This document shows positions 208-47,108 of a DNA stretch of 64,000 nt, piece by piece; position 1 is the first letter of the stretch; each line of letters opens with the position of its first letter. Origin of the DNA: Branchiostoma floridae (Eukaryota > Chordata > Leptocardii > Amphioxiformes > Branchiostomatidae); the NCBI RefSeq assembly GCF_000003815.2, contig NC_049980.1, forward strand, positions 20,745,609 to 20,809,608, in the 5' to 3' direction. Both the position numbers and the translations under genes were made by a program. Below the pieces are notes generated by a model. That model saw only the letters and a program-made list of their open reading frames with translations, was not told where the DNA came from and made no database searches.

Positions 208-357
208 CGTGTGAATGTGTCTTGTAGCTGCTGTGGTGTTGAGGCAAAGTCAAAGGCACAGAAAGACTGCGGCAACAACACCTCCATGTTTCTCCTGATC
301 TCTACAGGTGGGTGGGTCAGAATGGGAGCTGCACTGCCGAAGAAGGGGTAGGTGTAC
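208..357 (-). CDS. CEP120: CEP120 coding exon 11 (last in window)
   Basis: Residues 505-554, [20 protein letters not shown] through [14 protein letters not shown], one of the most conserved stretches of the family. The donor GTAAGG lies below 208, phase 2, so the gene continues off the window. Confidence 0.96.
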
Positions 358-3300
358 CTGCGGCAAAAGAGCACATCAACAGTAGTGTTATAATTAGCAA
401 TTTCAATAGAGGAAAAATGGTTTGATCGCATGAAAAAATGTATGTAGACTAAAGGGTAACACTAATAGACTTGCAAGAGGGTCATTGATCTGCAACTGTT
501 TCATCATTAAATCTTACTCGTCACATACTTTGACCTTTCACATTCTCCTATGCAGCTCCTTGCCCACGACCTATATGTGTGTATGTAATGTACCTTGGGA
601 AGGTTCTGCTAAACTGGGCTGAGATTCCCAATACTGTTGGCATGGCCCTAGCTTAAGCTATCAAAAGAGAATTGCCTAAATGTTTTCTTTGAAATAAGCA
701 GCTAGCTGGGGGCAAGGCTCTATGTAGTCCTTACAAAGTATCATGGAAACTTTTTTAAGAGTGCGAAACCCTGTGTGGAAGATCTTATAACCACCTCAAG
801 AAGATGTAGAGTGGAGCACTCATGCTAGTTTCCACGTCTTGGATGCTCCTGAGGTCCAGGGAGAAACAGAAGTGGTGCGCGGCAGGAGGGATGGAGACGT
901 ACGGCTGGGATGTCGTGACAGAGCTGGGCGCCGAGTCTACAACTGGAGGCTTGGTTTCAGAACGCACTGCAATAGAATTAAGTGGATAAGCCTGGAGGAA
1001 ATCTTCATCAGTTGTACATAGCCACAGAGACTGGATATAATGTCCTATGCATTTACATGTAATTACACAGGCATATAGAACTAACAAGGTTTGGTTACAG
1101 TCATATGCCTGAAAAGCAACAGCAGAATCACTATTGGTGCATAGCATATGAGGTCAGCAAGTAAATTGGTAATGCAAGATATAATGGCTCTCAGGATTCG
1201 GATTCTCATGTACCTAAAACTATGAAAAGAACCATACACAAAAATGTACATCTACATATACAAACTGTATCTCAATCTGCTTATTGAACTTCATTCATTC
1301 CTTACCTTTTGTGGGCAAAGGAAATGTTGGCTCTTGCAGCTTTAGATCCTCTGTCCGTTTACCTTGTTTACCAGCTGTTTCATCTTCCCGCCTGTTCCCA
1401 TCCTCCCCCAAACTGCTCAGGCCTTGCTCCGTCTCCTGTGTATCACTGAGCAGGAAAGACAGTATCAGCCATAAAGTAGCTTAGATGTCAGTGTCAATTA
1501 TGAAATTGACTTCAACAAAAAGGAATGGTAAGCCAAACTTTGACTTTTTACTAACCTTGATGGGCTAACAGGTGGGGAACGTGGCAGCCTCTGGGGTGGG
1601 GTATGGCCCTGGGGAGGGGGTGGGGGCTGCTCCCCTGGGGGTGGTGTTTGTGATCTCTTGTCAGATGCCCGTGGCTCGCGTGGCTGGATGGGTGTGATGG
1701 GGTGCTCCTTTGGAGGAGTGGCTGGAGCTGATGGCTGGAAACAAATGTGCACAAAATGTACCAACATTGTAAATCTTGTATTAATATGGCAGCAGCTGAC
1801 TTTATCCCAAGCTTCATACTGCATGCTGGAATTGGTAGCATACGAAGTTAAATGTCAAATGCATATCTCTCAGGACTATAGTAGTATCCAGGATTACATA
1901 ATGGGTAAAATAAAGAGTTAGAACCAAGAATTCCAATTCTGCATTAAGATATGAATAGATGTGGCACTTTGTTGAAAGTAGCATAATTTGTGTAGTTGGT
2001 AGATTGAAGGAGCTTGAGGCTGAGAGTAGTACCTGAGAGGGGGCTCCACTCCCAGTGTCTTGCCGCAGTGTGATGGACACCCCCACACTGGGGACCATGT
2101 CACCCCCCACGGGTGGCAGCTGCTGCTTGACCCTGTTTGGGGGGTTCAGGACGAAGGACCCCTCCAGGCTGGCGGGTTTGTCCAACAGGTCGGAGGCTGA
2201 CTTCAGCAGGGTGTTGAGGGGGACCTCAGTGCTGCCCAGGGAGTGGTCTCCACAACACAGGTGAATCTACAGCATGGGAAAGGCTCACTTTTCAGTTTGA
2301 GGACAGTCCATAAAACATTACCCTCATCTGATTATTTCAGAACACAATTGTTCCATATCTAAGCTAACACGGTACTAAGCACGATAATAAATCCACCTGT
2401 AATTTCTGCCATTTTCCTTTTTGTTTAATCATCCTAATTCCTGAGAACACATTCTCCATGCAGACCGGGTGGTATTTTCTTGATTACAGAACATGGATGC
2501 ATGACCTGACCTGTAGTCCCGGCTGTGCTGCCAGGAAGAGACGGAGAACCTGCACACTGCTGCGCACACGGACGGACGCACGCTCCGCAGGGAAATCCGG
2601 GTTCAGCAAATTGTGGAAAGACTCGTTGGTGACATCGTTACCCAGGAGGGAGTAGTAAAAGAAGAACCCACTTTCTCTTGAAGGAAGGGGCATGGACATC
2701 GGAACAAGCTGAAAAATCATTGTCAAAAAAAACATTCAGCAGAGAAAAGTCAAGTAGAAACATGTATCTGCATCAGCAAATATAAACAGGTTTTTTGTTT
2801 TAGTGTAATTTATGCTGAGGAAAATTGTAAGTGGGGGATATAATTTGTATGTAGGTAAGGAGTGAACATGATATGTTCATATTGAGTACTATCTATAACA
2901 GGAACTTTCATATTTCAACACTATACAGTATTGGTGTTGAAGTTGTTATAAATTTCAAATCTGTTCCTTTATTTAGAAACATGATGGTACTGAAGCGCTG
3001 ACTAGTAATCCATGGCAATACTGCAGCTTGGAAGAATATACTAGAAAGAAGATGTCAGAATCCCAATATGGCAGCACCCATCTACAGTGAGTTTTAAACA
3101 GGTTCCAATATCCCGATCCTGTGATAAACACTAATGCTCTTGTATCACTTTCAAATGAATCTATGTTGAACTATCCTCTACATGTGCTGGGAGGTACAAC
3201 TGACTTATATAAAACAGAAGCACTGAGGACTGCCAGCCATCCGCCTACTGACTTAGGCTGGAACTACAGCAGTATGATCAATACATTTCAGAAATATGGC

Positions 3301-6300
3301 AGGCCACTGTGTCAAAATACAAGGAACCTGTTTCTCTTCACTGACAATAATGTACTAACAAAAATTATGACAAGCCTCTAATATGTAGGACCATCACATT
3401 ACATAGCAGTAGACCAGTAATATAGCTTGTTACAACTCAGAGCAGTTTGAAATGGAATGGAATACTAGTACCTCACTGCCATCATTATCTTTCTTATTCA
3501 GTTTAGAGTCGATTCCGAGTCACCGCGAGGGTTGCCATTGTCATCATTTACAAATGGTTTCAATTGTTTTCAAGTATATGTCCAGGAGATTTTATACTTT
3601 TGAAATATTTCTAATGCTATTTGAACTTTCTAAATATTTTCCCCGGTCTGTAAAACCTTCTTATTCACAATGTGGAACAGAATACTTCTAACAGTTTGTA
3701 AACAATGGTAACAGCATTTTGCCTTTATTTACCATTTTCTACCATTTTTTGTAATATTGGGTCAGTGGGCTAGGAAGAATGCAATTCACACATCCTTGCA
3801 AAGTACGACTGGGTGTCATGTCAATGGCCTGCCACAAAGGACCCACCAGTGCCCATCAGTGAAATCTAAAAATATACCAGGTAGACAAAAGGGGCTAACT
3901 TTTATGGGGCAATGAATTGATTCTACCATTTGGCAAGGTTTACCATTTTTTGTAACTATTTCGAAAAGTGAAAGAATCCTGCAGATGTTTGAAAATTATT
4001 GTAAATAAAGAGATTTTTGTGTGATCTCTTTCAAAATGTTTCCAAAGTATTAAAAGGAATTCAAATAGATTCAAAATTTCATATCAATATTTTTGAAAAA
4101 ATTATAATTATTGGGGCTTAGATATTCTTTTATTCAAAATAATTCCAACTTATTACAATTATTGTCTAAAAACCCTCATGGTGTCTCGGAATTGCCAAGT
4201 TATGAGGATATCAGTGGCTTCCATGGCGAGTGTCCTACATGCCTCACTAACAAGGTACTTCAGCCATTAATCCCAGGTTTAACCTACAGTACTAGTACTA
4301 CCGGCAGGTCAGGCTATTTCCTGATGATGCAATGTACAGGCTTCGGAGTTCCTACAATATCCTGCAACAGTTCCTACATCAGCCCATGAAGTATCCCAGG
4401 CATGTTCAAAGTAATCAAAGAACAGAATGCTTTGTTTATTCTAGACTAATTTCTACAGACATAACATACCATTGATACCTGAGTGCATTCTGGTTTAATG
4501 TGAGGTGTGTATTTTGTTACTTAAGAATTTGCAAACTGGTCATGACAGCTACATGACATACTTTGTCCTTGTAAGGTCAGTGGTGAAAATCCTCTGGGTA
4601 TTTCATAAAATCTACCATGTAATTCTTATCCATCTTGATAGGTGGGGATGCTGATCAAACAAGTAATTTGACATCCATAGCTCTCTAACTTACTTGCCTA
4701 AAGTTATGTAGGGCACAGGTTTTAAAGCTCAAATCACCATGGCTCCCAGAAGTTTCCATCCAGCAAGGTTCATATGCTTTTTTAATGGCACTAACAATTC
4801 ACTGAGACTCATGTAGTATCCGAAACCTTTCCATTTACCCACTTGGACCATTTGGCTGACACAATGTTTTCAGAATAAACATTAATAGCTGGGTTGTTCA
4901 TGGTAGTGTAAACAATCAGAGCCATAAATACCTGCGGCAAGTTGGAGGCGAATGCCACGGTGACAGAGAGTACAAAGTGTTGGGTACACCTGTCCGCAGG
5001 GCCGACCTGATAATATCCCTCCTCTTCATTCAGCCGAGCCTTCAGGGTACGTGGATCAATGTCTGAACCAGAGGTGTAGAAGGAGAGGGTGCTGTAAGGT
5101 TATAGAGGAGAAACTCACGGTCTGCTCAGTCACACTCAGCTTCAATGTGTACAGCATCTCCCACCATTATCATGCTAAGTTACCTTGCCCACCTTCCCTG
5201 AAACTGTACCATGCTCAACCATACTTAGTACTGTTATCTATTCTATCATAATTGAATTAATCCAAGTTAATAGGTTGGAATTGCTACCAGCAAATAAACA
5301 CTTATAACACAAAGATAAAATAATGTATTGTTTTACTACTATCTTAAAAGCATGCATCACTGAGTTTATGACATATCCATTGTACATGTAGCTAGCCCAA
5401 GTGCCATAAATCTACCATGACCAGGGGAAACATGGAAAAGTAGAGCTTGTTATTTTTTTCCATTAAGCTGGGAGGAAACATAAGAATTTTCCAGCCATAT
5501 TCTATTCTACAAGTATACATTTCTGTGTTGACGTCATTTGGCCAACCCACGCACACTTGAACACAAAATTATCTCTACCAATAGACCATTAAATGATACT
5601 ACATGAACATATGCTCTTACCATCTCTAGGAGGAGAATCCTTAGCCCTGAAGGAGATGTCTTTTTTATCAGCACTGTCTGTCTCTATGGAGATGCTGGCC
5701 CTGATCTCAGGCTTGTATCTGCTGTACTTGGAACTCAGAAGGCTGTACCATCGTGGGCTTGGTGTCTACGGGAAGTCAAACACATGTCGTTATCACTACA
5801 TCTCCCTTACTTACACAGGCAGTTTGCAACTCACCTTCCAATTTACAGGAAAATTTTACTGCTGCTTCGAAGTCCCAACGATCACTATCGTATCAAGAGT
5901 TGACTACTTTGCCTACAGGAATGGGCAATTTGAAATGCATATTGAGACAGAGTAGGCACACAAGAATGATTAACCACGTATTTGTTGGTCAGTTCATGTT
6001 ATTGGTTGCTTGAGACAAAACATAATGGTTTGGGGATAGTACAATGCAGCTTGGCCATGGCTATATTTTCAGCTAAGCACACCCTATTTCCAAACATGCT
6101 GTGGTTGATGTCTGAGGGTAACAGAGCAGCTTCAGACAAACTTAACATCTCATCCAAAAGACAAAAAATTTAACCCTAAGTCTAAACAGCCAAAGTTTGA
6201 GGCCACGTAGCATGGCTGTTTGGAGTTTGACTGAGTCAAACTCCCAATATAGCAAAGCAGTGTTTGAACCATATGGACATACCATAGCTATCAACTTTTT

Positions 6301-8890
6301 TCATCAATGTCAACTTACAATCATTTAATACATTGTATTGTACAGCAATGTCTCTCTAGGTTTCGTCAGTAAGTTTCATGTAAGGCTGACAGAAAGTTAA
6401 AGTATTTCCAAATCATAATAATTTCTAACTGAGTAAACTGACCCTAAATCATAATCAACAAATCATTTACTCTTTCCAGTTGCTAAAAGCACCAAAATCC
6501 ATGAGTTTCTAGTGATGGAATCTAGATTTTCAACTGTGTGACTAGGAAAGATCAATCATCAATGTTTATCATTCATACAGCACAATTGAGATTTCAATTC
6601 TCTCCAATTATGTTAAAATATATCATTTCATTATACTCATTTCCATCATACAGAATATATTTATTCCTCATCTCATCTCATCTCATCTTTAAACTCTACA
6701 AAACTAAAATCTATTCTAAATAGACATATTAATAAATTAAAATGTTCCTGAATTAAATGTTCTTGATACTGTTTCATTTTTTACCCTGAGTATCATCCTC
6801 CGCTGGCTCACGACTTTCGCTTGCTAATCGTGGTTAGAAAGCGAAAGTTGTGAGCCAGCGGTCACTACGGAGGATGATTTTCATTTTCAGGGGAAGGGGC
6901 AAATTTTCAACTTAGTTTATAATTTCATTTGTGGTGGACCTAAACTGTATTTACCTGAAAAATGACAACTAGTACTAGTTTTAACTTGTACATGTATATT
7001 GTATCATGTACATTAGGTACTTACTGGATCATCCTGTTTGGCTTGTCTGATGTCTATGATGACATATCCAACAGCCTCTTTAGCAGATGTAAGTGTGTCT
7101 ACAGCATAGCACTGGAGCTTGATGGGAGTTCTCTGTAACCTGAACCAACGAGAATATGCAAAATACGAAATCAAATTAAATTGACATAATATTTGAAATT
7201 CTTTAACAGCAACTGGAATTTTCCTCAACTGACAACATTTTGGTAGTCCTTCTGCTGGGTGAATGATGAGTTACTTCTTTTTCTGAGTAAAGTAACAGAA
7301 AGACTACCAAAGCAGTATTGCTGTTCACAGGAACATCCTGTCAATGGTGCAATAGTGCAAATATAGGAACAAGAAGCATAGGAATACCTTTCAATCAGTA
7401 AACAACCCAACAAAGCATATGAGCAATCCAGGTTTGTGCCTTGTGTGGTTAAAGAAATTTAATATTTACTGCCAGATGAAACTACAAGTCAAGTACTACT
7501 CTTGGATATCCTGAGAAAACAGTAAATAGCCTAAAGACAATGTCACGTTGGTCTTCAATTTCGGTAACATTAATAACATCGACCAATCAGGAGCCCTCAT
7601 TTGATATTGATATCATAACATCATCAGCCAGTCAACAAGTCCTGGGTTACCAGAATAGCTTGTTTGTACCATTACATTACAGGATCTATGATGATATAGC
7701 TACGGCCGCGTGGCGCGTTGGTACACCCGATCCCTTGATCTCGGAAGTTAAGCAACGCGCGGTCCGGACAGCACTTGGATGGGAGTCCCCCAAACAAGGA
7801 CGTTCGGATTGCTGTAGCCTCACGAAGCTTTCCACGAAATCGTCTTCCGGGAGGGTCGTAAAAGGGGGGTCCCGTGCTCGAGGAGGTGCCTCGACCACGT
7901 TAAACAGCCTCATTACCCACACTTTGGGTACCTACTGGCTGCAAAATACACCCGATGATAGAAAAATTCATATTTTGGTATAAATAAAGCATTTGAAATT
8001 GAATACAAAAAAATCAACAGAATGATTATTTGATAGTACAGTAGAAGCCAGGTAATTGAAAATCAGATAACTGCACACTTTGGTAAATTGCATGGAATCC
8101 CAAAATCCCAAACCGGCTCCCATTCACCCCATATATTTGTTCTTCAGGGACTTCACTGCACAACGAATACTTTTTTAGTGTAGTCACAAATGCCGGATAA
8201 TTACATGAAACATCGTCAAACATCGTTGACAAATGGACTGAAAATGCGTGCTAAAAATTGGTATACATTGGCTGTGTAAAGGTACAGTACCGAAAACATG
8301 TATGAAATTGTTTTTAGGAGCAAAAGAAAGCGATATTGTGGCAGTCAAACCTGTTCCAGTATTTAGACAGGACACTGCTCAAACCAGTAATCATTGACGT
8401 GTCACAGTGCACAATACGCTGTAACGTATATACTATACACTCCGACTGGGTAACTTCACATTACTGCACACGCCGGATAATAGCACGACATTATGGAAGA
8501 TGAAGATGAAGAAGACATAGTGATGCTGGATGGAAATCACCTGTGTTGGTGAAGTGACTTTTTGTTGAGTTCCCAGGCCAATTCGGTGTTCAAGTCAGGA
8601 GTCTCTGTATGGTCGACTGGATCTGTGGAAAGCAGCTCCCCATCAAACTTTGCCTCGACAACAATCTGGTGCCGCGAACGCTTTGGAAACTTGCGACCTG
8701 TTCGTGATCATGGAAGCAGAGATTGTTATGATAATCAAGACAAAAATCTGGCTTATCACAAACCCCGGAAGTAGGGTTAAAATAATGCACTGTGACTCCA
8801 AAGAACTTATGAATACCAATCTAAAAGTATATACACATATCTCTTACCTTCAAGGATACCTAAGACGACAAGAAACTGGTCTTTAACCAT
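208..8890 (-). CDS. CEP120: CEP120 homologue, 5' part (11 coding exons, truncated by window edge)
   Basis: Coding exons in transcription order: 8848-8890, 8541-8697, 7025-7139, 5621-5765, 4932-5062, 2511-2708, 2033-2266, 1556-1734, 1306-1445, 795-966, 208-357. Phases agree at every junction and give 554 complete codons; vertebrate CEP120 has close to 990 residues. The rest of the third C2 domain and the C-terminal coiled coil must lie left of the window. Known role: a daughter-centriole-enriched protein that binds tubulin and partners such as SPICE1 and CPAP for centriole elongation and ciliogenesis. Sequence support: an N-terminal C2 domain (residues 1-about 130, with VEAKFDGE and ELAWEL), a second C2 (about 150-340, with [15 protein letters not shown]), a proline-rich linker (about 345-450), and the start of a third C2 ([25 protein letters not shown]). 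The start is ATG at 8890 ([15 protein letters not shown]), colinear with vertebrate N termini. It is divergent from CSNK1G. Confidence 0.95.
795..966 (-). CDS. CEP120: CEP120 coding exon 10
   Basis: Residues 448-505, with [20 protein letters not shown] opening the third C2 domain. The acceptor is TCTATTGCAG. The donor is GTGGTT, weaker than its neighbours, but phase 2 fits the next exon exactly. Confidence 0.9.
1306..1445 (-). CDS. CEP120: CEP120 coding exon 9 (charged linker)
   Basis: Residues about 401-447, polar and charged ([20 protein letters not shown], then [15 protein letters not shown]). No recognisable domain. It is accepted because of a strong acceptor (CTTTCCTGCTCAG), a donor GTAAGG, and phase agreement with both neighbours. 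Confidence 0.8.
1556..1734 (-). CDS. CEP120: CEP120 coding exon 8 (proline-rich linker)
   Basis: Residues 342-about 401. About a third are proline ([20 protein letters not shown]). It is a disordered linker between C2B and C2C, weakly conserved in sequence but in the right position. The acceptor is TTTCCAG and the donor GTTAGT, phase 2. Confidence 0.85.
2033..2266 (-). CDS. CEP120: CEP120 coding exon 7
   Basis: Residues 264-341 ([44 protein letters not shown]), the end of C2B. The acceptor is TGCTGTAG and the donor GTACTA, phase 0. Confidence 0.95.
2511..2708 (-). CDS. CEP120: CEP120 coding exon 6
   Basis: Residues 198-263, [20 protein letters not shown] through [12 protein letters not shown]. 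It contains the nearly invariant [12 protein letters not shown] and [11 protein letters not shown] blocks of CEP120 C2B. Phase 0 at both ends. Confidence 0.96.
2709..4931. other. CEP120 intron 5, no gene
   Basis: A 2.2 kb AT-rich intron. It holds recurrent ACCATTTTTTGTAA words around 3740 and 3940. No coding similarity or structured repeat was recognised. Confidence 0.6.
4932..5062 (-). CDS. CEP120: CEP120 coding exon 5
   Basis: Residues 154-197, [20 protein letters not shown] to [13 protein letters not shown], the start of C2B. The acceptor was chosen after a long pyrimidine tract (GGTTCAG). An alternative acceptor 27 bases further 5' in the transcript would break phase. Confidence 0.9.
5621..5765 (-). 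CDS. CEP120: CEP120 coding exon 4
   Basis: Residues 106-153 start [20 protein letters not shown] and end [11 protein letters not shown]. The acceptor is TTCCCGTAG and the donor GTAAGA. It covers the end of C2A and the hinge to C2B. Confidence 0.93.
5766..7024. other. CEP120 intron 3 with a TCATC microsatellite and a palindromic element
   Basis: Mostly AT-rich unique sequence. A short (TCATC)n run is near 6668-6690 and the inverted-repeat element at 6792-6878 is listed separately. No exon is supported. Confidence 0.6.
6792..6878. repeat. 87 bp palindromic MITE-like element
   Basis: The outer arms ATCATCCTCCG / CGGAGGATGAT are perfect. The inner arms (6801-6821 and 6840-6860) begin CGCTGGCTCACGACTTTCGC and pair with one mismatch around an 18-base loop. 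The right arm has a short insertion between the two blocks. Confidence 0.8.
7025..7139 (-). CDS. CEP120: CEP120 coding exon 3
   Basis: Residues 67-105 ([20 protein letters not shown], then [12 protein letters not shown]). This is the best-conserved part of C2A. The donor is a perfect GTAAGT and phase 0 follows. Confidence 0.95.
7699..8012 (+). mobile_element. 5S rRNA-derived SINE
   Basis: 7699-7818 is recognisably 5S rRNA: GCTACGGCC start, TGATCTCGGAAGTTAAGCA (box A region), CACTTGGATGGGAG (box C region) and a GCTGTAGCC end. Internal substitutions make it unlikely to be a functional 5S gene. It is fused to about 190 bp of unrelated body and an AT-rich tail ending near AAATTGAATACAAAAAAA. That is the architecture of 5S-headed SINEs (SINE3 class; amniote AmnSINE1 is a related design). 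It lies in CEP120 intron 2. Confidence 0.8.
8038..8240 (+). mobile_element. possible pogo/Tigger-like terminal fragment
   Basis: Begins TA then CAGTAGAAGCCAGGTAATTG, like pogo/Tigger ends (CAGTNGA after a TA target). Similar GGATAATTRCA words recur at about 8190 and 8470. I could not find the opposite terminus, so this is tentative. Confidence 0.3.
8541..8697 (-). CDS. CEP120: CEP120 coding exon 2
   Basis: Residues 15-67 ([20 protein letters not shown] through [10 protein letters not shown]) continue C2A. The acceptor AACAG lies above 8697, the donor GTGATT below 8541, phase 2. Confidence 0.92.
8848..8890 (-). CDS. CEP120: CEP120 coding exon 1
   Basis: ATG at 8890-8888 followed by [14 protein letters not shown], the first beta strand of C2A. 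The donor is GTAAGA directly below 8848, phase 1. The open frame does not join exon 2 directly (a TGA intervenes), so the intron at 8698-8847 is required. Confidence 0.88.
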
Positions 8891-35579: not shown

Positions 35580-35654
35580 GCCTGAGTTGGTGCAGTGGTG
35601 CTGCAGGGAACTTTCTAAACTCCTACAGATCGAGGCGTCCGAGGACATTGCCAG
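35572..35654 (+). CDS. TRIP4: TRIP4 exon 1
   Basis: MATPELVQWCCRELSKLLQI then EASEDIA. The leader part is shorter than the human N terminus. The donor is GTGTGG, phase 2. Confidence 0.93.
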
Positions 35655-38600
35655 GTGTGGGTTTTATTATCATATGTATAGATCGTTCTATTTTTGCCCC
35701 TGTTTGTGTGGGTGTTTCTTTGTTATCTCCTGGAGCCTGGCCACGTATGTAATACGTGTTCAAACATGGGGAGGGGGGCTAGCGGCTCATGCCTTATCCA
35801 AGTGTGTGATTGCATAACACTAAGCAATATTCTACGTGTCAAATACATAGCGTATATGTATGTATATATATATATTTAGGTTGAATCAAAATGTACCACA
35901 GTAGTACTGTACTTCATGTCTTAACGTTAAAGCAAGGACATTATTATTATGGCCTTATTATAATGTTTATGTGCAGAAAGTTTTTCCAAATTGCAAGTAG
36001 ATTTTCTAATTTTCTGGTAACTTGCAAGATTGCTGGAAACCGAAATAAACGTATTTGAGCCTTGTTAAACATAACACGTTATTCACAGTTGTCATTTATT
36101 CCTTTAAGTCTTAAAATGTTTATTTTGTGTGTTTTTTTGCAGTGACCTCTTTATTGCAAAATCATGACAGGCGGGCGAATATGTTTACTAAATTTCCGTT
36201 TGTAGTAACGTTACTACTGCACAACTGAATCATTTCAGACACATACGTAAAACACATAAAAAATATCCTTGATTGTCCTCTGACTCTGAAAATAAAGGAA
36301 CTGACAGTTCTGTTGTTTTCATAGCTACATGTTATCCATGGAGAGCAGCCGTGACCTGGAAGACTACCTGTTGGAGTTGCTGGATGGATCCGACCCCAAG
36401 AATAGAAAGTTTCTGGACGAGTTATTGAAAAGATGGAAACCTGCTGTCAAACAACCAGAGGTTCCAGAAAATGTCACAGTTTACAAGAAGTCTTCAGGGG
36501 CAGGTGTGTTAGACCAAGATGTAGATGCACATTGATGACAATTAAGTCTTTAGCCAAGTACTCTTCAAGTAAGACTAAGAGCAAAATATATAGCCTCCAT
36601 ACTAGTAGCAGGCTCTCTGGGGCCTTTTTGCGGCTCATAATACACCTTTGCTGGCCATTTCTTGTTGTACTTGGTCGCTGATTGCCGGCCGCCACTGATT
36701 CATTGGCCCATAAATCAGCAAAAGTGTATTAATTATGACAATGAGCCGAAAAAAGGCCCCAGAGAGCCTGCTGAGAAGGCTAGGGCAAGGAGGTATTCCA
36801 GAAACATCTGTGTGGGGGAGGTTGGATGTCATTAATAAGTCATTGTTTCTGCATATGTAGAAGTCTCAGAAAAAGACCCCTACACACATTGCTCAAAACA
36901 GCATTATGGTTTAATAACCTCAGTATTAGATGGCTGCTGTACCTTAAACTTTATGTTTCCTTTTTACATGCAACTTAAGACGAGCAATCCGGTATTCTGG
37001 AGAAGAAGAAAAAGAAGAAGCCAAAGGAGAAGCAGAAGTACACAGGAGTGTCTGCTGGTCCAGCAGATGAGGAGGAGGTATCTGCAGTGGATTCTTACAT
37101 GCAAATCGGTTTTAAGTAGTTGTAGTTTTCTGTGAAAATGGAGGTATTTTGATAAGTCAGTGTGCTTTTTTGGCAGTTATGTGGCCTCTGCATTATGGCA
37201 TCTGAGCAGGAAATATGGTTTGGCTCAGTTTCAATGAAATTGTAGCTGAGAGCAGGGATGTCTCATGGCTACACCTACACATGTAATGTCAGGTCATTTG
37301 GGGTACCCACTTAAATCTTGTTCAGCTAATTGTTTCAGGCTGTTATGTTTTCATATAGCATTGTAGTGAAAGGGGCTTATTTGGTATGTGTCTATATGAT
37401 GCATATACATTTGTATCTGTTGTGTTACCAAGAAACTATGTAGGCAACTGTGTAGTAAAACTAAAAGCAATGTAAGACATAATGTGGATTTAATTTTGTC
37501 AAATATGTATGTAAATGTGGTGAATTAGTTCCTGAAATTAATATGTACCTGCTCAGTCCTGCTGTCTCAGAATTCACCAGGTTAGCTTGCAGCAAGCTGC
37601 TTTTGATGCACAAAGGTTCTGACCACTTGGTCATTGTAACAGACAGAAATCTTTGTGTCATGATGTGGAAAAGATGTTGGCTAAGACTTGTATCAAATAA
37701 GATCAGATCAAAGCAGTATAGCATGCCTTTGATAGAACCTTATGACTCCTTCACTTTTTTAGGAAGAAAACCAGCCTCCCACCACCGGTCTCCACTTCCA
37801 GAAGCCCAGTAGTGGGAAGACCAAATGGAAGAGTCTATATGGAGAGGATGGGGAGGACCATCTGACAGCAGTGATGTTACCAGGGAGACATCCCTGTGAG
37901 TGTTTAGGACAGAAACACAGACTTGTCAACAACTGTCTGACCTGCGGGAGGATCGTCTGTGAGCAGGAAGGCTCAGGGCCATGTCTCTTCTGTGGAGCTT
38001 TGGTACGTTCGTTTGTATTGTGTGGTGAACTACCATACCACCACTTGTTAAGTTTGTACTTGCTCTGTAAAACTAGACTGATAGGGTTGATCCACTCACA
38101 CGGGGATGGATCACCCTGTTGATAGCATGCTAAGTTCATAGAGTTGTAGCTCTCCTCAGAGGATTTCTGGCTTTCCATCCCATCTGACAGAATGTCCATA
38201 ACCAAAGCTGGTAATCCGAGAACAATGCACGACTTATTACACAAGAACACACTTTTTGAATGCCTTTTTTCTAGGTTTGCACCAAGGAAGAGATGGAGGT
38301 TCTGTCCAGGAATTCCAACAAGAGCGAGCGATTACGGAGAAAGCTGCTAGGGGGCCTGGATGAACAGGGAGGGCGGAGACTACTGCCTCATGAGGAGGCC
38401 CGCTTGCTGGAGGGGAAGGACAAAGCAGAGGCTCATAAGAACAAGCTGTTGGAGTATGATAGAACAAGGTACGTGTTTTCATTTCATTTCATTTATGTGT
38501 ATGTAGCTATTTCATGAAATCTTGGCTCAAGTTGCTAAGACACGATGTAGCTACTACTAGTATCTGCTTTAATGTAGGTGGGGACGCTTGTTTCTGTAAT

Positions 38601-41600
38601 CATCATCAATTGATTGTTACAGATTCGGACAAGTTTTCGAATATTCCATGGCCCTACTGGATAAGTACAACATGGTCATTTCTATTTGCCCAAACCAACT
38701 TTTTACTAGACCCAAATATCAATATCATATATTTCCATTTTTACCAAAAGAAAAGAATTTTTTTTTTATTGTTCAGTAAAGAAAAAGCTCTTTGATTTAA
38801 GACACGTAACAATGTTTTAACTACATGACTGCCAGGCCGCTGGGAGTGTGATTTATTCAGGCCAGTATAACAGTATCTACCCAAATTACAGTGGATCCTC
38901 CGGGCAAGTACAGGATGGCATGTACTTGCCCGATTATCACTGTCACTTACCCAGCCAATGGACTTGTACAACCTTGTCTTGTATCGTTTCTTTCAATTTT
39001 TTTAAAACTATTTGCCTGTCAGATTGCTGCCAAACATCTAAGATAGGAAATCATAAGAATAAAGACATCAAATGGATTTGACCCTCACTTGTATTTTCTC
39101 TTGGTATTATATTCTAATACACCTTGTACTTTTTCTAACAGCGCCAAACGTACTCAGGTCCTTGATGACGAGGCAGACTACTTCAGTGTGGAAAACCAGT
39201 GGTTGTCCAAGGAGGAGCGAGAAGCTTTAAAAAAGCGAGAAGACGAGCTTCGCGAGCAGCGGTTTGGTTCACGATTGAACAAGAAAGTCACGCTGGACTT
39301 TGCTGGAAGACGGGTTATCGAGGATGACTCGGTGGTTGATGTGTACAACAGGGAGGATGAAGTTGTACAAAGAACAAACTTTGGGGTGAACAGGAAGGGA
39401 AAGGGTGGTGCAACACAGGAGGGCCACAGTGGCATTGTCAATCCTAATATCAAAATACAACCTCCAAAGGTGAGACCAGTTGGCAGCTTACAAATAAAGG
39501 TTCTAGAAAGCTAAGCTGTAACTGTATCTGTAACACAGTGCTGCCCATTACCCACAAATTTCTTTGTTTCGATTTATGTGTCTTCAACGAGTGATGGGTT
39601 CTTGATCTTGAATGTACATGAGAAAACATTCCATTTCTTGAGCTGATATTACTCCATCCTTGTTATGTCTTGTTATTTTGTACATCATGCGATGTTTAGA
39701 TATTTTTACTCTGCTTTTGAGTGACATGGACTTCAAAAAAGTTATCCGTGGACCAAATAGTATGTATTCCTTCCGACAATAAGAAAGAAGTTTATTTCTT
39801 TTTTCGATAGTTTGTCCCAGCAGCAGAGTCAGAAGGGAGGAGACCTCCTGCTCCGCTGAGTTCCCAGGGTGATGACAGGGAGAAGCACAGGACCAACATG
39901 AGGATCCAGGATAGGGAGCTACAGGAGATGAGAGATGACGGCATGTGTCTCAGCATGCACCAGCCGTGGGCATCACTGCTGGTCCTCGGCATCAAAAAGT
40001 AAGGACGAGAGGAGATGGAGAAGGAAATAACTGGTTATCTACACTGAGAATGTATGTACAAGTATGTGTGCATTTGTGTGTTTGCATGTGTACGTGTGTG
40101 TCCATGCGTGTGTGCATGTGTGTGTGTGTGTGTGTGTGCGCGTGTCTGTGTGATCTATTTATCTATGTATGTATCAATTCATTGATCCATTCAGTCCCCT
40201 GTCTAAGTCTAACAAAACCAGCTCAGTCGACCACACCTCCGTTGTGACTTGTCCTTTGTACCTGTGCAGGCACGAGGGGAGGACCTGGTACTCGCCACAC
40301 CGCGGCCGACTCTGGATAGCAGCAGCCAGCAAGCAGCCGTCCCAGGAGGAAGTGGCTGAGGTGGAGAACGCACATCGCATCATCGCAAACGGTGGGTCCA
40401 TGTGATCATCAATGGGTTCAGAAACAATCCTCAACTGTCCATTAGTATCAGTAACACAAGTAGTTTACAAAATGTAGGGGTGCATGTGGTCCTCTTTGTA
40501 TAAACTTCTAGTTTTGTTACCTTGTTGATGTTATTATCAGTCAATTGATTTCGAATTCAACAAATGCTGAGGATTATTGCACAGGCAGTACTGCTTTTCA
40601 TCATGTAGAAAGAGTAGCATAGACCCTTTGATATATGTACAATGATATCTATGTGCCTTGTTCTTTCTAGAGCCTAACCTCCAGTTCCCCAAAGAGTACC
40701 CTGTGGCATGCCTGTTGGGGTGTGTGGACGTAGCTGATGTTCTACCACAGGAGGAGTACAGGGAACAGGTATGACAGTCATCTATCAAGTCTACTTCTTT
40801 CCCTTAGGGACCTGACGATATTTACCCGGGGGGGAGGGCTGGTGCATAGGTGGGGGGGGGGGGCCATTGAAAAAATTTTTGAGCCAAGGGGGGGGCATTG
40901 AAAAATTTTTTGAGCCGAGGGGGGGGCCATTGAAAAAAAATTGCCTTAGGGGCCATGATAAATACAAGCAAAATGTGCCCCTGAAATGCAGGAAATGAAG
41001 TTTCAGATGGTCAAGATTTCAATTCGCGCACACAACACTTCGGCACTCGTCGCCATCAAAAATCTCTTCCTCTGACAGAAAATTGTCATTACATTTAGCA
41101 TAGTCTACCAGCGAAGTTTATCCCTCAAAATGCAGAAAACCGTGTCTCAGAGGGTCCAAACTTCATCATTTGAATGACATTTCTCCAGACTTACCTTGCG
41201 ACGGCTCGTGCCATGCCCGGCGCTCGAAATCGTGGAAATACGTTGGGGGCGTCGTCGCCCTCAAAACCATGTGAAGTTCTAATAGAAAGGCTATTAAACT
41301 TAGCTTAGTCTGCCAGCAAATTTTGCCCATCAAAATTTAGGAAAGATCGTTTCAGATAGTCAAGATTTCCAAATTTTCCCGGGGGAGCATGCCCCCGGAC
41401 CCCCCAAGGATTACGTTCGCCCTCCCCATACTGGGAAATTTTCTGCAGCTGCCTCTGTCGTGTGGTTCCATGTTCGCACGAAGTTTAAGAAAACTATAGA
41501 AACTAAAATTGGTATAAATATCAATCCTGCGTGCATCTGTTCTTTGTATACGGAATGGTTCACGGACGGCAACGGGATAAAACATTGCGATGTTTACTTT

Positions 41601-44487
41601 CGTGACAGTGGGCTCTCTGCTGCATATGACGTTATCATGGTGGCGCGAAATTTTTTTGGCAAGTTTGTAGGTTGCAATTGGCCAAAATAACTCCCATTTT
41701 GGAAAGATTGAAGCAGTCTTGAAGCGGTTTTCGTAACGATAGCGCTAAAATGTACCCAAGTCTCTTCCAACTACAACATTAATTTGTTTTCTTTTGAGTA
41801 AATTTTGTACGTGTAGTGGAAAAGATCGCCTTGGATTACTGCCCTCCCCGCCCGCTTTTCTCTTCGTTGATGTGGACGCATAAAATCCACATTTTTTTTG
41901 CCTCACAGAATGCGGGAAATTTCGTTTTAGAGGGTCAAAAATATCAAAATTTCCCGGGTAGCATGCCCCTAACCCCCGAGACCGGTCGGGCCTTTGGCCC
42001 TCCGATCCCTGGACGGCCTTTAACAGCTAGCCGTCGGTCTGGCGGAAACGCTCAGTTTCGTGATCTTGCGTATTAAAGTTTAAACGTTACCAGAGACTTT
42101 TTTCATGTAGATTGGAGAAGTGATATCAGACAAGGTAAGTCTTATAACCGTTGCAGCGTGAGTGTAACAACATCAAGTGCTACATGTTTGTATATATGTC
42201 ATCAAAATGAAAACTTGGCTGTTGTAAAACTTTGGGAGATAACATATGCCCCAGCACTGGACTCCAACGTGCGCAATTTGTTGACGCGCGGGTCTTGACA
42301 CCCCGATCGTCGTCACGTTCAAACAATGCTACCGCTATTGTTATTGCTATATTATTTAATGACAGACTGTGTGTAATGAAAAGGCAAGGAAAAATTTGGG
42401 GGGGGGCATTGAAAAATTTTTTGGGGTGGGGGGAGGGCCATAGAAAAATTTTTTGGGGCGGGGGGGGGGGGGCATTGAAAAAATTTTTACCAGACCTATT
42501 TTGCACCAGCCCCCTCCCCCCAGTAAATAACGTCAGGTCCCTTCCCTTAGAGTGGCTTAGCGACATTTTACTTTCAAACATTTGGCAAGGTCATACATCA
42601 CAGAGTGAAAGGCGATCCCGGCCGACCCAGGCGGCGGATTCTCGTTGGAGCTCAAGGGTCACTTCCTTCAGTATAATTCCACACGATTGCTCTACTAGCA
42701 ATCCTACCATGAAAACTTGCTGCTTGTGTTGACATATTTCGCCCAATACTACATGTATGTATCATGCATGTTTATGACTTAGACTATATTGGGGTAAAAA
42801 AAAGTACCTGAAAGCTGAGCCCATGTGTCAAGTCCTGTAACATCAAGCTCCTGAAGCAGTGTTCTTTCCTGTTGCAGTACCCAGATGGGGAGTCAGGATC
42901 AGATTTTGTCTTCATCTGTGAGAACTTCCAAGAGCTCATCATCAAGTTTCCCATCAAGGGGAAGCACAAGATCTGTAAGTACAGACCACTCAGAACTGAG
43001 GTTCTATTGGTGTTTGTAGTTTGTACTTGACCTTTTGAATTATAGCCACAAAATCTTAACCACTCAAAAGTTGAGGTGAGGCATGCAGTACCCAGAAAGG
43101 GAGATAGGGGGTGTTTTTGTACCACAGGATGTTTCCCAGGGCCACCCCACTCCAGGATTAGATAGTATTGATCCACCCCTTCCTCTTGCTGACAAAAGCG
43201 GGTGAAGGACAGACAAGGTCACTGCTCCCCTGGGAGGATCCCTGTTCATCCCACACTGATTAGAGGTGCTTGCACAGGCTTGCAGGGCCTCCAGTGATTG
43301 TAGGACTGTACATTTTGGTAAGGGAGAGGTCCCCAACCCTTACTGATGAAGGAAATATAACATGAAGATGGATGCCCATGCTCACAGCTCATCGATGACA
43401 CGGCATCTCGCTATATTGCTTCCACTGTAGGGGACATACGTGGCTTAATATCACAGTCAACACCAGGATTTCCATTATACCAAGCAATCAGCTGTTGAGA
43501 ATATGTCTTCATTCTAATCTCATCCTGCTGACAGACAGTAGGAATGGATGGGAGATGCAATCTGTAAGACCCGGTAAAGGCAAATGTCACAGCGCAATTA
43601 TTTAATGAAAAGTGTGTGCATGCTTTTGCATAATTTATATATACTTTACACAGTGTTGAATGACAAGAACTTAGTGTTTCTGTTACATACACTTCACTTG
43701 ACAGCAGATGTGTTGAATTTAGGTACCATGCAGTTCAAGCTGCAAGGTGAAATTGATTTTTATCATTTTAGTATCTTTTAATCGTTAAGATAATCACAAA
43801 CATCATGAAATACATGCTTATTGATATGATGAACACATTGTTCCGTAACAAGACAAATATACTGTACGTAATAAAACCGTGCATTAAATCCTAATTTAAT
43901 GATGTCTAATTTGATCATGAAGGTAAAGAGAATAGTTAATATTTTGTACATGTATTTACGTGGAACATGAATATTGTATCGATTAACCAAGTCGTATAAC
44001 AGATGTCTCAATGGTGGTAATGACACACAAGTGAAATTTGAACTACTGCAGATTTTCGGTCTGTAGTATTAGGACCTTAAGCGATACATAATAAAATTTA
44101 CATCTTAAAATACTCAGCACGGAAAGTGCTTATTAGAGCATGACTAAATCTTGACTAAATATCATGTCTAGTTTTCGTCAAGGAGGTTAAAAAACCTCAT
44201 TGTTTTCGTCAAAGGTGTAACATACTCAGATTAAAGGACAGTCCATGTTTTTATTTTTCAACTGAGATTTTCGAGCTGACAGATGGGTCAAAAAGATCTG
44301 TGTTGATTGGCTGCATATTGTTTGTCAGTACTTCAGTCTGCAATTACTACTAACAAAGAGAAGATATGTCTGTATGTATAATATCCTAGCAGATGAGTCC
44401 AAAGAGTTTTCCACATATTCAGATGGTGTTTGTATGTTTTTCTAGCAGTCCACACAGATGCTAGAACTACATGTAGTTACTACTAAG

Positions 44488-44544
<57 letters not shown>

Positions 44545-47108
44545 AAAGACCTGTGTACAACACTGCTTTCTTCTTTCATTTTGAGGCTACAAACTTCAAC
44601 TTGCTGAAGACCTTTGTAGCCTATATACTCATTTTTCACTTGAGTGAAGTGAGGAAAGTCGTGTAAAGTGCCTTTCCCACGGGCACAAGATCGGTGACAC
44701 GGCGGGGTTCGAACTCAGGACCTTCTGGACCTGAGTCAAACATGCTGCCAATTGCGCCACACGGTCCCACTGCCTGCTGTACCCTACATCTGCTTGGAGA
44801 TAATGTGCGGAGTCCTCAGAGAGTAGTACAATGTAGATAGACTGTCTACTGGTTATGTTACCAGTCTGCTTCTTCTCCCTGCTTTCACCAATATTGGTCA
44901 TGGCAACAAGCCAAACGATTTAATATGGTACAATTCATGACATATTCCCCGTCTTGTCCAAAGTTATTAGTCACCTGTATATTTATGTGTCCTTCTGACT
45001 GTTAACGATACTTCTGAGGAGACATTTGGTTAGATTTACATTCAAATTCAGACCTGGGCTCCCATGCCTTCATCTGTGGGTGGTTAAGATGCATGGGGAA
45101 GGTTTGAGTTGACTGTACTAAACATTTATCTTTGTTGGACATGGGGGAAGATAGGATCTCTATGGAACATTCATACTTGTTCAGGGGCTTGCCTTCTACA
45201 TCCATGGAGGCTTGCCAAAATAAAGACATTTCTGCTGTAGTTGTAAATCCACATGGAAAGTACAGCTGTTGGGACCGGAGGAATCCAGGAGTGAAGGGGA
45301 AGGGTGAACAGGAGGGAGGGATTTTGCTGCGGTGCCTGAGGCAGCTTGTGCGTGTTCTCTCAAGGTCACAGGCTGGGCTACCTGCATAAAATGCTGAATG
45401 TCAACGGCATAAATGATGTGTTAAAGAATTAAATTGACAGCACCATCCCCTGCTGTAGGTTGAATAATGCACACTCCATTTGCAAGATTTATTGAATTAG
45501 GTTGAATTGCCTTTACCTGAAAATTGTACAGTCTGTCAAGATAATCCAGCTATTTGTTAGCTTACCTTGATTACACAAACCCTTGTCAAATATTTAGCCT
45601 GACATCACATGGGGTTACATGGGGTGTCTTGGTGTTACAAATCATAGCACTCTGCTGTATACTAGTAATATGTATAAAATGCCTAAGGATTTGACACTAT
45701 ATTGCTGTGTTATCTATCAGCAGCAAGGTACTTGTTGGCAAATGGTATTCCAATTCTTGAGCTTGCTCCTGAATAAATAGAGGCAACCTGTATATGTGCA
45801 ATGTTTATACTGTAGTGACTGATAGTGCCTTAGCTGCTTACCAAGAGGTCTGTGTGTGTGTCTGTGTGTTTAGGTCATGAGTTTAGACAGGGTCAAGAAG
45901 ATAAGAATGGATTGCAGTGCAGTTTGGCCTTGTTCTAATGAAGAAATTTTTTTTGCCACAACTTCTGTTTTTTTATTTCTTGAAAATTTATTGAAGGTAT
46001 TATTTTTGGCATATCTGTCTGTCTGTGTTTCCTGGTCAATATAACTTAAAAACCTCAAGATGGATGAATTGTAATGATATTCAATATAGAACAGATGTAG
46101 GTTCAATTTTGCCCCCCCCCCCCCTGTGTGTAACCTTGTTATGGCAGAAGAACTCCGTCCACCCCACAATAACATATGACTTTGATATTGATAATAAATA
46201 ATGTTTAAAGAAACCTAAATGCTAATTAAGATGCACCATGTGGCCCTTACATACCTTTCATCTGTGGCACATAACAAGGTCCAGTTCTATTGGGGCCATC
46301 AGAAACATACCACTCGTTTTACAACTAACTGTGCTGGTAAAATCATAGAACAAACATCGTCAGTAAAACTATTACTGGTCGCAGATATTTAGCATCATTT
46401 TGTTAAAGTCAATTGTATTAACTTGTTTTCCACACCAGCATTTGACCCCCATATGAGAATCCCAAGGTAACCTTGCAGAGGCTCCAGCAGTCTAACTCCA
46501 CCTGTGTGTTTCCATTGTCTGGCTGACTGCCAGCTCACCCTCTCAGATTGGGAAGCAGTCATTAGCGAGGCTCAGCCAGTGAGAGTAAATATGCTGACAG
46601 CTAACCGCAGCTATTACCTTTGTGGCTCCAGTTGTCACCTGTGTGAACATAAAGCTGAGCAGTGCCATCCTGTTCTGCAGATAACTGGAAATGTGACAAG
46701 AGCTTTGTGCAAGTTTCTTGCCAACAATGATTGTAATTATAGAATGGGTTCCTGTTGTGATATTGTGGCCTCATTAGTTTTAATGGCTTAGAATCTTTTC
46801 CTTTTCCTTCACAGGCCCCAATGCTGGAAAGGTATTTTTGAATACACCAAATTAATATCACATGTCAGAAATCAAATGGGAATTATTATAATACATTTTC
46901 CTTCATGTTTTTAATTTTTTTGTTTAATCCTGATTTCTAGCCCAGTCTGCTTCTGATTGTATTCTATTGTTTGCCTTTAAGCATGCTGTAGTCGATCTTG
47001 AATGTTGTTTTACACAACAACTGTGTTGCTACCACAGGGAGACTGGATCCTACCACTCACAAGGCAGCCAAGAAGGGGCTGAGGCCAGTCGTCAGGAAGG
47101 TCTTCTAA
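35572..47108 (+). CDS. TRIP4: TRIP4/ASC-1 (activating signal cointegrator 1), complete (11 exons, 565 aa)
   Basis: Exons: 35572-35654, 36325-36503, 36980-37077, 37763-38002, 38275-38468, 39142-39469, 39811-39998, 40270-40391, 40671-40768, 42878-42974, 47038-47108; 1698 nt in frame. In animals ASC-1 is part of the ASCC complex with ASCC1-3, acting as a transcription coactivator and in disassembly of collided ribosomes. Domains: an N-terminal helical region (1-87); a lysine-rich segment (about 96-106) likely to be an NLS; a C2HC5-type zinc finger with cysteines 165, 167, 178, 181, 186, 194, 197 and 202; a coiled charged segment (270-330) with KKVTLDFAGRRVIED; and a C-terminal ASCH domain (about 420-545, MCLSMHQPWASLL, WYSPHRGRLWIAA, FPIKGKHKIW). 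Human TRIP4 is 581 aa. Intron 9 carries a DNA transposon and intron 10 is 4 kb. No clear AATAAA follows; ATTAAA at 47852 is a candidate. Confidence 0.97.
36325..36503 (+). CDS. TRIP4: TRIP4 exon 2
   Basis: YMLSMESSRDLEDYLLELLD, GSDPKNRKFLDELLKRWKP and a variable tail. It matches the human YVLSIES/ELITKW region. The donor is GTGTGT, phase 1. Confidence 0.93.
36607..36772. mobile_element. 166 bp MITE with long inverted termini
   Basis: Left arm AGCAGGCTCTCTGGGGCC... (from 36607) and right arm ...GGCCCCAGAGAGCCTGCT (to 36772) pair over about 30 bp with one mismatch. A second paired block is CAGCAAAGGTGTATT / AATACACTTTTGCTG. No clear target duplication. In TRIP4 intron 2. Confidence 0.85.
36980..37077 (+). 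CDS. TRIP4: TRIP4 exon 3 (basic, NLS-like)
   Basis: DEQSGILEKKKKKKPKEKQK then YTGVSAGPADEEE. The acceptor AACTTAAG is atypical (AAG), but phase agrees on both sides and the KKGR-like block matches the human position. Confidence 0.85.
37763..38002 (+). CDS. TRIP4: TRIP4 exon 4 (zinc finger)
   Basis: Residues 121-200. VMLPGRHPCECLGQKHRL, NNCLTCGRIVCEQEGSGPCL and FCGAL are nearly identical to vertebrate ASC-1. Seven of eight zinc-finger cysteines lie here. Phase 0 both ends. Confidence 0.98.
38275..38468 (+). CDS. TRIP4: TRIP4 exon 5
   Basis: VCTKEEMEVLSRNSNKSERL to HKNKLLEYDRT. It supplies the last zinc-finger cysteine (202) and the start of the helical charged region. The donor is GTACGT, phase 2. 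Confidence 0.95.
38888..38943. repeat. hairpin-forming inverted repeat in TRIP4 intron 5
   Basis: Outer arms ACAGTG / CACTGT and inner perfect arms CGGGCAAGTAC (38901-38911) / GTACTTGCCCG (38922-38932) around a 10-base loop, with unequal unpaired segments between. Confidence 0.75.
39142..39469 (+). CDS. TRIP4: TRIP4 exon 6
   Basis: Residues 265-374: AKRTQVLDDEADYFSVENQW, LSKEEREALKKREDELREQR, NKKVTLDFAGRRVIEDDS, GIVNPNIKIQPPK. Strongly conserved. The acceptor is TTTCTAACAG and the donor GTGAGA. Confidence 0.97.
39811..39998 (+). CDS. TRIP4: TRIP4 exon 7 (ASCH start)
   Basis: A variable linker, then RIQDRELQEMRDDGMCLSMH and QPWASLLVLGIK, the first strand and helix of ASCH. The donor is GTAAGG, phase 2. 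Confidence 0.96.
40068..40152 (+). repeat. (GT)n microsatellite
   Basis: An imperfect TG/GT tract with a pure core of about ten GT units near 40118-40140, in TRIP4 intron 7. Confidence 0.9.
40270..40391 (+). CDS. TRIP4: TRIP4 exon 8 (ASCH core)
   Basis: HEGRTWYSPHRGRLWIAAAS then KQPSQEEVAEVENAHRIIAN. It contains the ASCH motif GRxWYxPHRGRLWIAA. The donor is GTGGGT, phase 1. Confidence 0.97.
40671..40768 (+). CDS. TRIP4: TRIP4 exon 9
   Basis: EPNLQFPKEYPVACLLGCVD then VADVLPQEEYREQ. The acceptor is TTTCTAG and the donor GTATGA, phase 0. Confidence 0.96.
40807..42541. mobile_element. 1.7 kb non-autonomous DNA transposon, hAT-like, with 8-bp TSD
   Basis: Ends GGGACCTGACG (40807) and CGTCAGGTCCC (42541) are perfect inverse complements, continued imperfectly (TATTTAC..GGGGGGAGGG, CTGGTGCA). 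They are bracketed by the identical octamer TTCCCTTA at 40799-40806 and 42542-42549. An 8-bp duplication suits hAT-class insertion. Inside, G-runs joined to CATTGAAAAATTTTTT recur in the same orientation near both ends. A diverged unit (ATGCAGGAAA..TTTCAGATGGTCAAGATTTC) recurs at about 41000, 41120, 41325 and 41910. There is no transposase coding capacity. Confidence 0.9.
42878..42974 (+). CDS. TRIP4: TRIP4 exon 10
   Basis: YPDGESGSDFVFICENFQEL then IIKFPIKGKHKI, the end of ASCH. The acceptor is CTGTTGCAG and the donor GTAAGT, phase 1. Confidence 0.97.
44489..44544 (+). repeat. (ACT)n microsatellite
   Basis: About 18 uninterrupted ACT/TAC triplets. Confidence 0.97.
44596..44769 (-). mobile_element. 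tRNA-derived SINE with snap-back tail
   Basis: The minus strand begins GGGACCGTGTGGCGCAATTG with an A-box-like TGGCGCAATTGG and ends its head with B box GAGTTCGAACC. This is followed by CCGTGGGAAAGGCACTTTAC and a tail whose AGGCTACAAA / TTTGTAGCCT arms form a hairpin at 44584-44623. The acceptor stem is poorly paired, so it is a SINE rather than a tRNA gene. Confidence 0.65.
47038..47108 (+). CDS. TRIP4: TRIP4 exon 11 (terminal)
   Basis: Completes W, then RLDPTTHKAAKKGLRPVVRK and VF, then TAA. It matches the human WKLDSKIHQGAKKGL ending. The acceptor is GCTACCACAG. It lies 4 kb from exon 10, so it is easily missed. Confidence 0.94.

Follow-up and report, generated by a model that had tools for sequence, protein, structure and literature searches.

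Amphioxus–vertebrate synteny typically sets one unduplicated amphioxus segment against several vertebrate segments that have kept complementary genes, the paralogons of the two rounds of genome duplication (2R); one precedent places an amphioxus scaffold against four human chromosomes (PMC6292497, in the sections drawn on here). The same sections assign 25% of neighbouring amphioxus genes (3,950/15,884) to bidirectional promoters, and describe 372 putatively ancestral bidirectional promoters, most of which vertebrates have not retained (54.5% disappeared in stem vertebrates). Human PCLAF (KIAA0101) and TRIP4 are nearest neighbours in divergent orientation; head-and-neck tumour data show their co-expression, and the pair is reported to be ELK1-responsive (PMC7185143, excerpted text).

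The locus described here, in a 64,000-nucleotide stretch of amphioxus DNA (the window), resembles each of these systems. Like the published paralogons, it is a single amphioxus segment whose genes are divided among vertebrate segments, although the excerpted synteny analysis is genome-wide and does not single out this block by name, and ours is microsynteny at the level of genes, with defined strands and gaps (PMC6292497). As with the ancestral bidirectional promoters and their disentanglement outlined there, two head-to-head pairs are separated by short gaps, one of them divergent in human and the other apparently separated; here the pairs are known from their arrangement. One pair consists of the same two genes, divergent and nearest neighbours, as the human PCLAF/TRIP4 pair. 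Unlike the human pair as described in the excerpt (PMC7185143), it is adjoined tail to tail by CSNK1G, with CEP120 beyond.

Frame-consistent splice-site models give the order CEP120(−), CSNK1G(+), PCLAF(−), TRIP4(+) (Table 1). The four genes, order and strands agree with a preliminary description of this DNA, and all four have strong protein or domain matches. The limits proposed there, 208 and 47108, correspond to the GTAAGG donor of the leftmost CEP120 exon and the last base of the TRIP4 stop codon.

Table 1. Gene models and intergenic intervals of the four-gene block (window coordinates)
Feature	Coordinates	Strand	Description
CEP120, 5′ part	208..8890	−	10 exons, 512-residue model; cut by left window edge, remainder to left
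CEP120 exons 1–5	8848–8890, 8541–8697, 7025–7139, 5621–5765, 4843–5062	−	Gene model
CEP120 exons 6–10	2511–2676, 2033–2266, 1556–1734, 795–923, 210–357 (donor at 208)	−	Gene model
CEP120/CSNK1G interval	8891..9860	.	970 bp between start codons (958 bp with the alternative CSNK1G start at 9849); putative bidirectional promoter
CSNK1G (casein kinase 1 gamma)	9861..28303	+	10-exon model, 9861–10026 to 28210–28303; last junctions uncertain
PCLAF (PCNA-associated factor, PAF15)	33667..35223	−	Four exons; start codon 35223, stop 33667
PCLAF/TRIP4 interval	35224..35571	.	348 bp between start codons; putative shared promoter
TRIP4 (ASC-1)	35572..47108	+	11-exon model, complete from start to stop; 537 residues

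The CEP120 model matches three separate solved N-terminal pieces of CEP120 in the PDB, the third partly, and Pfam family PF12416 at 202 bits. The 3′ end of exon 5 is doubtful, as a stretch of residues modelled there fails to align with solved CEP120. CEP120 presumably comprises three C2 domains and a C-terminal coiled coil, the latter of which would fall outside the window. For CSNK1G, an in-frame ATG at 9849 provides an alternative start, and a further likely exon lies at ∼26662–26763, beyond the 10-exon model. Its kinase region scores 603 bits against CK1 gamma-3, 591 against gamma-2, 567 against gamma-1 (a shorter construct) and 574 against Gilgamesh, compared to only ∼394–399 for CK1 delta/epsilon (all PDB). 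Together with the Pfam matches, PF00069 and PF12605 (CK1gamma_C; 62.6 bits, cut-off 21.2), these scores place it in the CK1 gamma family. PCLAF is identified by PF15715 (99.2 bits, cut-off 23.4) and by PDB peptides of PCNA-associated factor, which fits a PAF domain with a PIP box; exon 3 (∼33874–34033) encodes a PIP-box-like QKGIGNFF, exon 4 lies at ∼33667–33718, and the 5′ end of exon 2 is uncertain. TRIP4 matches Activating signal cointegrator 1 (PDB 8alz) at 534 bits and carries TRI4_N, zf-C2HC5, TRIP4_3rd and ASCH in the order expected of TRIP4/ASC-1. In a six-frame search of the window, short motifs from CSNK1G, TRIP4 and PCLAF (n = 6) occurred once each, and this CSNK1G was the sole copy seen.

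The window contains two runs of N, at 15547–15646 (100 bases) and 22624–22905 (282 bases), and a mis-join at either could in principle have produced the gene order. Both runs lie within CSNK1G introns, however, and the exons on their three sides (exons 1–3, exon 4, and exon 5 onward) stay in frame and form one kinase. Moreover, CEP120 shares a gap-free stretch with CSNK1G exon 1, as do PCLAF and TRIP4 with the last CSNK1G exons. We therefore consider a scaffolding artefact extremely unlikely.

For comparison, vertebrate gene orders were taken from published lists. Human adjacencies cited in the preliminary description can be found there: CEP120-CSNK1G3 within SNX2-PPIC-PRDM6-CEP120-CSNK1G3 on 5q (PMC9318831, gene table), and CSNK1G1-KIAA0101(PCLAF)-TRIP4-ZNF609 on chromosome 15 (PMC3397127, in excerpt). 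PRDM6 separates PPIC from CEP120 in the 5q list; SNX24 and ZNF608 appear in a second sub-list, and hence the adjacency of ZNF608 to CSNK1G3 is not given by that table. On cattle chromosome 10, the order is ZNF609-TRIP4-[unnamed]-PCLAF-CSNK1G1-[unnamed]-PPIB-SNX22-SNX1 (PMC10048491, in excerpt), with only 21 kb from TRIP4 to CSNK1G1 (PMC9850537). As far as these lists extend, one vertebrate CSNK1G copy has CEP120 on its PPI/SNX side, and the other has PCLAF/TRIP4 on its ZNF side. In the window, a single CSNK1G carries both flanks, as reciprocal loss after duplication predicts. The two vertebrate segments, we assume, share the paralogue pairs SNX2/SNX1, SNX24/SNX22 and PPIC/PPIB on one side and ZNF608/ZNF609 on the other; the amphioxus order fits between these, which supports duplication of a block.

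Set against the published lists, the window thus unites orthologues of genes now on two vertebrate paralogous segments, as expected of a pre-duplication (2R) amphioxus block. We conclude that this segment very probably keeps a chordate order, CEP120-CSNK1G-PCLAF-TRIP4, that predates the vertebrate whole-genome duplications and was later divided by reciprocal loss. The polarity of the change is assigned by parsimony, in a comparison of amphioxus with vertebrates only. The block would have been duplicated in vertebrates, after which the copy at human 5q23 would have kept CEP120 beside CSNK1G3 and lost PCLAF and TRIP4, while the copy at 15q22 would have kept PCLAF and TRIP4 beside CSNK1G1 and lost CEP120. 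The documented human and cattle orders, to the extent that the sources present them, support this core proposal of the preliminary description, namely one unduplicated block split by reciprocal loss.

Could the amphioxus order instead be secondary? The chordate ancestor might have carried separate CSNK1G loci next to CEP120 and next to PCLAF/TRIP4; fusion of the two in amphioxus would then have come with loss of one kinase copy. This scenario adds an ancient duplication to the history and needs a precise fusion as well as a loss. The paralogues common to both vertebrate segments in the partial lists (SNX1/2, SNX22/24, PPIB/C and ZNF608/609) are what whole-genome duplication of one block would leave. 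In addition, the amphioxus kinase shows about the same similarity to each of the three vertebrate copies (∼2.0 bits per aligned residue to gamma-1, -2 and -3 alike), which also speaks against a fusion, although these bit scores are weak evidence because Gilgamesh scores almost as high overall. Taken together, these considerations make a secondary fusion very unlikely. That conserved genes came to lie side by side by chance, with no shared ancestry behind the arrangement, has a probability of ∼9e-12 for the vertebrate pairings, or 2e-9 when up to five intervening genes are allowed (a crude analytic estimate assuming random order of 20,000 genes); we found no point in its favor, and regard it as extremely improbable.

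Under the pre-duplication reading, two statements of the preliminary description need adjustment. It had called the block ancestral to two human segments, both of which appear in the published lists, and had overlooked CSNK1G2. The gamma-2 protein is matched by the amphioxus kinase and its gene, at 19p13.3, is a third vertebrate copy; the ancestral block would thus relate to at least three segments. It had also stated that both head-to-head pairs survive in human. This is correct for PCLAF/TRIP4, which is still divergent (PMC7185143, excerpted text). CEP120 and CSNK1G3, on the other hand, seem to have become separated (‘disentangled’) in vertebrates. We take them to be head to head on 5q, CEP120(−) and CSNK1G3(+), but separated by ∼90 kb, such that this pair would survive at most in orientation and would no longer share a promoter. 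On 15q, CSNK1G1 appears to have changed orientation.

In both amphioxus pairs, the start codons lie less than ∼1 kb apart, a spacing typical of bidirectional pairs, as judged on start codons rather than transcription start sites. Based on this spacing and the arrangement, each pair is probably driven by a bidirectional promoter. CpG observed/expected is 1.21 in the 348-bp gap; 17 of 1252 sliding windows are at least as high, and equally CpG-rich windows occur at sites with no known promoter (e.g. 23501, 41451, 52301 and 56176). The 970-bp gap is unremarkable overall (0.84, reached by 210 of 1215 windows), with a richer stretch on its CEP120 side (8891–9190; 1.15, reached by 75 of 2508). Consensus motifs were counted in both gaps, with expectations taken from window density without a shuffle control, and matches are not regarded as evidence of function. 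Observed (expected) counts in the 970-bp gap were 4 (1.44) for CHR-like, 3 (0.27) for TGACGT, 1 (0.11) for ETS, 1 (0.23) for E2F, 1 (1.94) for CCAAT and 1 (0.97) for TATA-like motifs. Near the CEP120 start, there are consensus matches CCGGAAGTGACG (ETS/CRE-like) at 8975 and TGACGTCA at 9031; the former, a composite spotted by eye and counted afterwards, occurs once in the window, and the latter in two places. The corresponding counts in the 348-bp gap were 1 (0.52) for CHR-like, 1 (0.08) for E2F and 1 (0.35) for TATA-like motifs, with consensus matches including TTTGAA at 35466 and an E2F-like site at 35320; CCAAT, ETS and TGACGT were absent from this gap by the same count. NRF1, YY1 and GFY consensus motifs had zero matches in either gap.

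The right part of the window (47–64 kb) was also searched for genes. The Pfam scan covered 16 of its 180 open-frame pieces (≥42 aa, outside a 39-bp repeat array) along with 4 other pieces; among the 16, every score stayed below the family cut-offs. One of the 4 other pieces, a frame through the array (61713–62762), matched Beta-Casp at 29.5 bits (cut-off 27.7) with no stretch significant alone, and this match was taken to be a repeat artefact. Matches to Rfam "mir-2060" in the window are pieces of this 39-bp minisatellite; the DNA was assigned to amphioxus on the basis of the mir-2060 match, together with the use of mir-2060 in an amphioxus paper. A codon-usage scan, for which the four gene models themselves served as the training set, put some unmodelled pieces (19029–19163, 55324–55554) on a par with weak real exons, and the window may contain further exons.

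A broader reading would make this block the center of an eight-gene ancestral chordate neighborhood, SNX1/2-SNX22/24-PPIB/C-CEP120-CSNK1G-PCLAF-TRIP4-ZNF608/609. Regulatory constraint, through shared promoters and through distant ZNF608/609 control elements among the neighbors, would then have preserved its order for >500 million years, rather than slow drift. We consider this doubtful. If true, PPI/SNX genes are expected to the left of the window in amphioxus, and a ZNF608/609 gene to its right.

A literature search of main texts yielded, among the matches listed, no paper on this block in amphioxus, and the block may well be included in a supplementary table. It is a new, clean example of a well-established pattern. 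The block offers a compact and checkable case of reciprocal loss, in which two vertebrate copies retained different flanks of one kinase gene. It also provides a natural test of the retention of head-to-head pairs, with PCLAF/TRIP4 divergent in human and CEP120/CSNK1G3 seemingly separated.

Gene models were built from a six-frame translation of the window, with donor and acceptor sites picked to hold frame between exon cores. The splice-consistent models reproduce the gene order and strands of the preliminary description, CEP120(-), CSNK1G(+), PCLAF(-), TRIP4(+), and its block limits of 208 and 47108 are right, since a GTAAGG donor abuts the leftmost CEP120 exon exactly at the former and the TRIP4 stop codon ends exactly at the latter. 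Junctions are uncertain at the start of PCLAF exon 2, in the last CSNK1G exons and in exon 5 of CEP120; within that exon 5, a run of modelled residues lacks alignment to solved CEP120 in the PDB comparison. PCLAF exon 4 lies near 33667-33718, and an additional CSNK1G exon is likely near 26662-26763. Two runs of N occur in the window (15547-15646 and 22624-22905). Because both lie in CSNK1G introns and the three exon groups that they separate form one kinase in frame, the gene order is independent of these gaps.

Genes of the block and the tandem array to their right
Feature	Position	Strand	Details	Basis
CEP120	208-8890	-	10 exons, cut off at the left edge of the window	frame-consistent splice model
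CSNK1G	9861-28303	+	alternative start, in-frame ATG at 9849	frame-consistent splice model
PCLAF	33667-35223	-		frame-consistent splice model
TRIP4	35572-47108	+	11 exons	frame-consistent splice model
39-bp minisatellite	61502-63264	-	unit with near-palindrome GGTGCTGAACACC, 26 exact copies	

Identities rest on PDB comparison (labels are PDB molecule names) and Pfam. The TRIP4 model reaches 534 bits against Activating signal cointegrator 1, with four Pfam domains in order; the CEP120 model matches three solved CEP120 pieces and PF12416; and the PCLAF model matches PF15715 and PCNA-associated factor peptides. For the CSNK1G kinase region, scores are 603 bits to CK1 gamma-3, 591 to gamma-2, 567 to gamma-1 and 574 to Gilgamesh, with CK1 delta and epsilon lower (about 394-399 bits); Pfam also matches the CK1 gamma C-terminal family. 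Per aligned residue, pairwise scores place gamma-1, -2 and -3 about equally close to CSNK1G, which would fit separation before duplication of the three vertebrate copies, a weak argument because Gilgamesh is nearly as close. The C-terminus (28210-28303) reads CCCFF, then a basic tail; in vertebrate CK1 gamma, these C-terminal cysteines are the membrane anchor.

Several introns carry repeats. CEP120 intron 2 holds a 5S rRNA-like element (7698-7820, plus strand, antisense to CEP120; 46.3 bits), possibly a 5S pseudogene or 5S-derived SINE. A tandem repeat with a 101-bp unit in 2.7 copies lies in CSNK1G intron 3 (14126-14406), and TRIP4 intron 9 contains two short tandem arrays (40857-40938 and 42397-42468) whose G-run/GAAAAATTTTT units, each about 31-32 bp long, resemble one another.

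Right of TRIP4, no gene was recognised over about 14 kb (47109-61500; the scan covered 16 of the 180 open pieces in 47.1-64 kb), where small exons might still be present, judging by codon-usage scores. The sole above-threshold Rfam microRNA match, mir-2060 (63073-63162), lies inside the 39-bp minisatellite (about 61.5-63.3 kb). At E up to 0.01, the family was found at ten places in the whole window, all in 61502-63162 and nine of them under the Rfam gathering score; a search restricted to 61400-64000 likewise gave ten. The 19-base core of bbe-miR-2060c-3p (sequence from PMC5650284) has 13 copies in the window, confined to the minus strand (61879-63141), compared with 0 in 100 shuffles. A similar hairpin forms when two consensus units are folded (-22.3 versus -22.0 kcal/mol, without shuffle control). 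Since family matches and core copies all fall in the array and the hairpin is similar, the mir-2060 'microRNA' sequence at this locus is, from sequence comparison, the minisatellite unit; the amphioxus family may be minisatellite-derived. Long open frames at 61655-62566 (+) and 61713-62762 (-) seemingly arise as a side effect of the 39-bp (13-codon) array; we rejected them as genes, taking one Beta-Casp score just over the cut-off as spurious.

The block comprises two head-to-head pairs placed tail to tail. Start codons are 970 bp apart for CEP120-CSNK1G and 348 bp apart for PCLAF-TRIP4, and the CSNK1G and PCLAF stops are about 5.4 kb apart. Both gaps are putative bidirectional promoters. CpG observed/expected is 1.21 in the 348-bp gap (17/1252 sliding windows as high) and 0.84 overall in the 970-bp gap (210/1215), rising to 1.15 in its CEP120-side 300 bp (75/2508); windows equally rich in CpG are also found away from any known promoter, e.g. 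23501, 41451, 52301 and 56176. A CCGGAAGTGACG site at 8975 is the single occurrence in the window. Gap lengths, CpG and this site are compatible with bidirectional promoters, without proving them.

Both pairs had been said to survive in human. About 90 kb separates human CEP120 from CSNK1G3, so their head-to-head arrangement would persist at most as an orientation and no longer as a tight promoter. Human PCLAF and TRIP4 are documented as nearest neighbours in divergent orientation; they are co-expressed in data from head-and-neck tumours and reportedly ELK1-responsive (PMC7185143). CSNK1G1, which in the preliminary description seems to have flipped on 15q, may have changed strand. Bidirectional promoters involve 3,950 of 15,884 neighbouring genes in B. 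lanceolatum, and vertebrates have lost most of the 372 that are putatively ancestral, with 54.5% lost in stem vertebrates (PMC6292497); one kept and one apparently separated pair fit that picture.

SNX2/SNX1, SNX24/SNX22, PPIC/PPIB, CSNK1G3/CSNK1G1 and ZNF608/ZNF609 are paralogue pairs, of which the two vertebrate segments carry matching series in published lists. Human 5q appears in one table as two sub-lists, each seemingly position-sorted: SNX2, PPIC, PRDM6, CEP120, CSNK1G3, ALDH7A1, and SNX24, LOC105379152, LINC01170, ZNF608 (PMC9318831). Cattle chromosome 10 is listed as OAZ2, ZNF609, TRIP4, an unnamed gene, PCLAF, CSNK1G1, an unnamed gene, PPIB, SNX22, SNX1 (PMC10048491), with 21 kb between TRIP4 and CSNK1G1 (PMC9850537); a human listing runs CSNK1G1, KIAA0101 (PCLAF), TRIP4, ZNF609 (PMC3397127). 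By these lists, one segment retained CEP120 on the PPI side and the other PCLAF/TRIP4 on the ZNF side. In the window, a single CSNK1G gene carries both flanks. By a crude estimate, the probability of the adjacencies under random order is 9e-12, or 2e-9 allowing five intervening genes.

One ancestral block, duplicated and then reciprocally reduced by loss, as the preliminary description proposed, is the simplest reading. The complementary flanks in the published lists support it; CSNK1G2, a third vertebrate copy, was left out of that account. No paper on the CEP120-CSNK1G-PCLAF-TRIP4 block was found among the matches listed, whose scope stopped short of supplementary tables. That vertebrate paralogons have their unduplicated counterpart in amphioxus is already established (PMC6292497), amphioxus also serves as an outgroup for vertebrate ancestral chromosomes (PMC10927551), and we rate the block as a further example of this established pattern.
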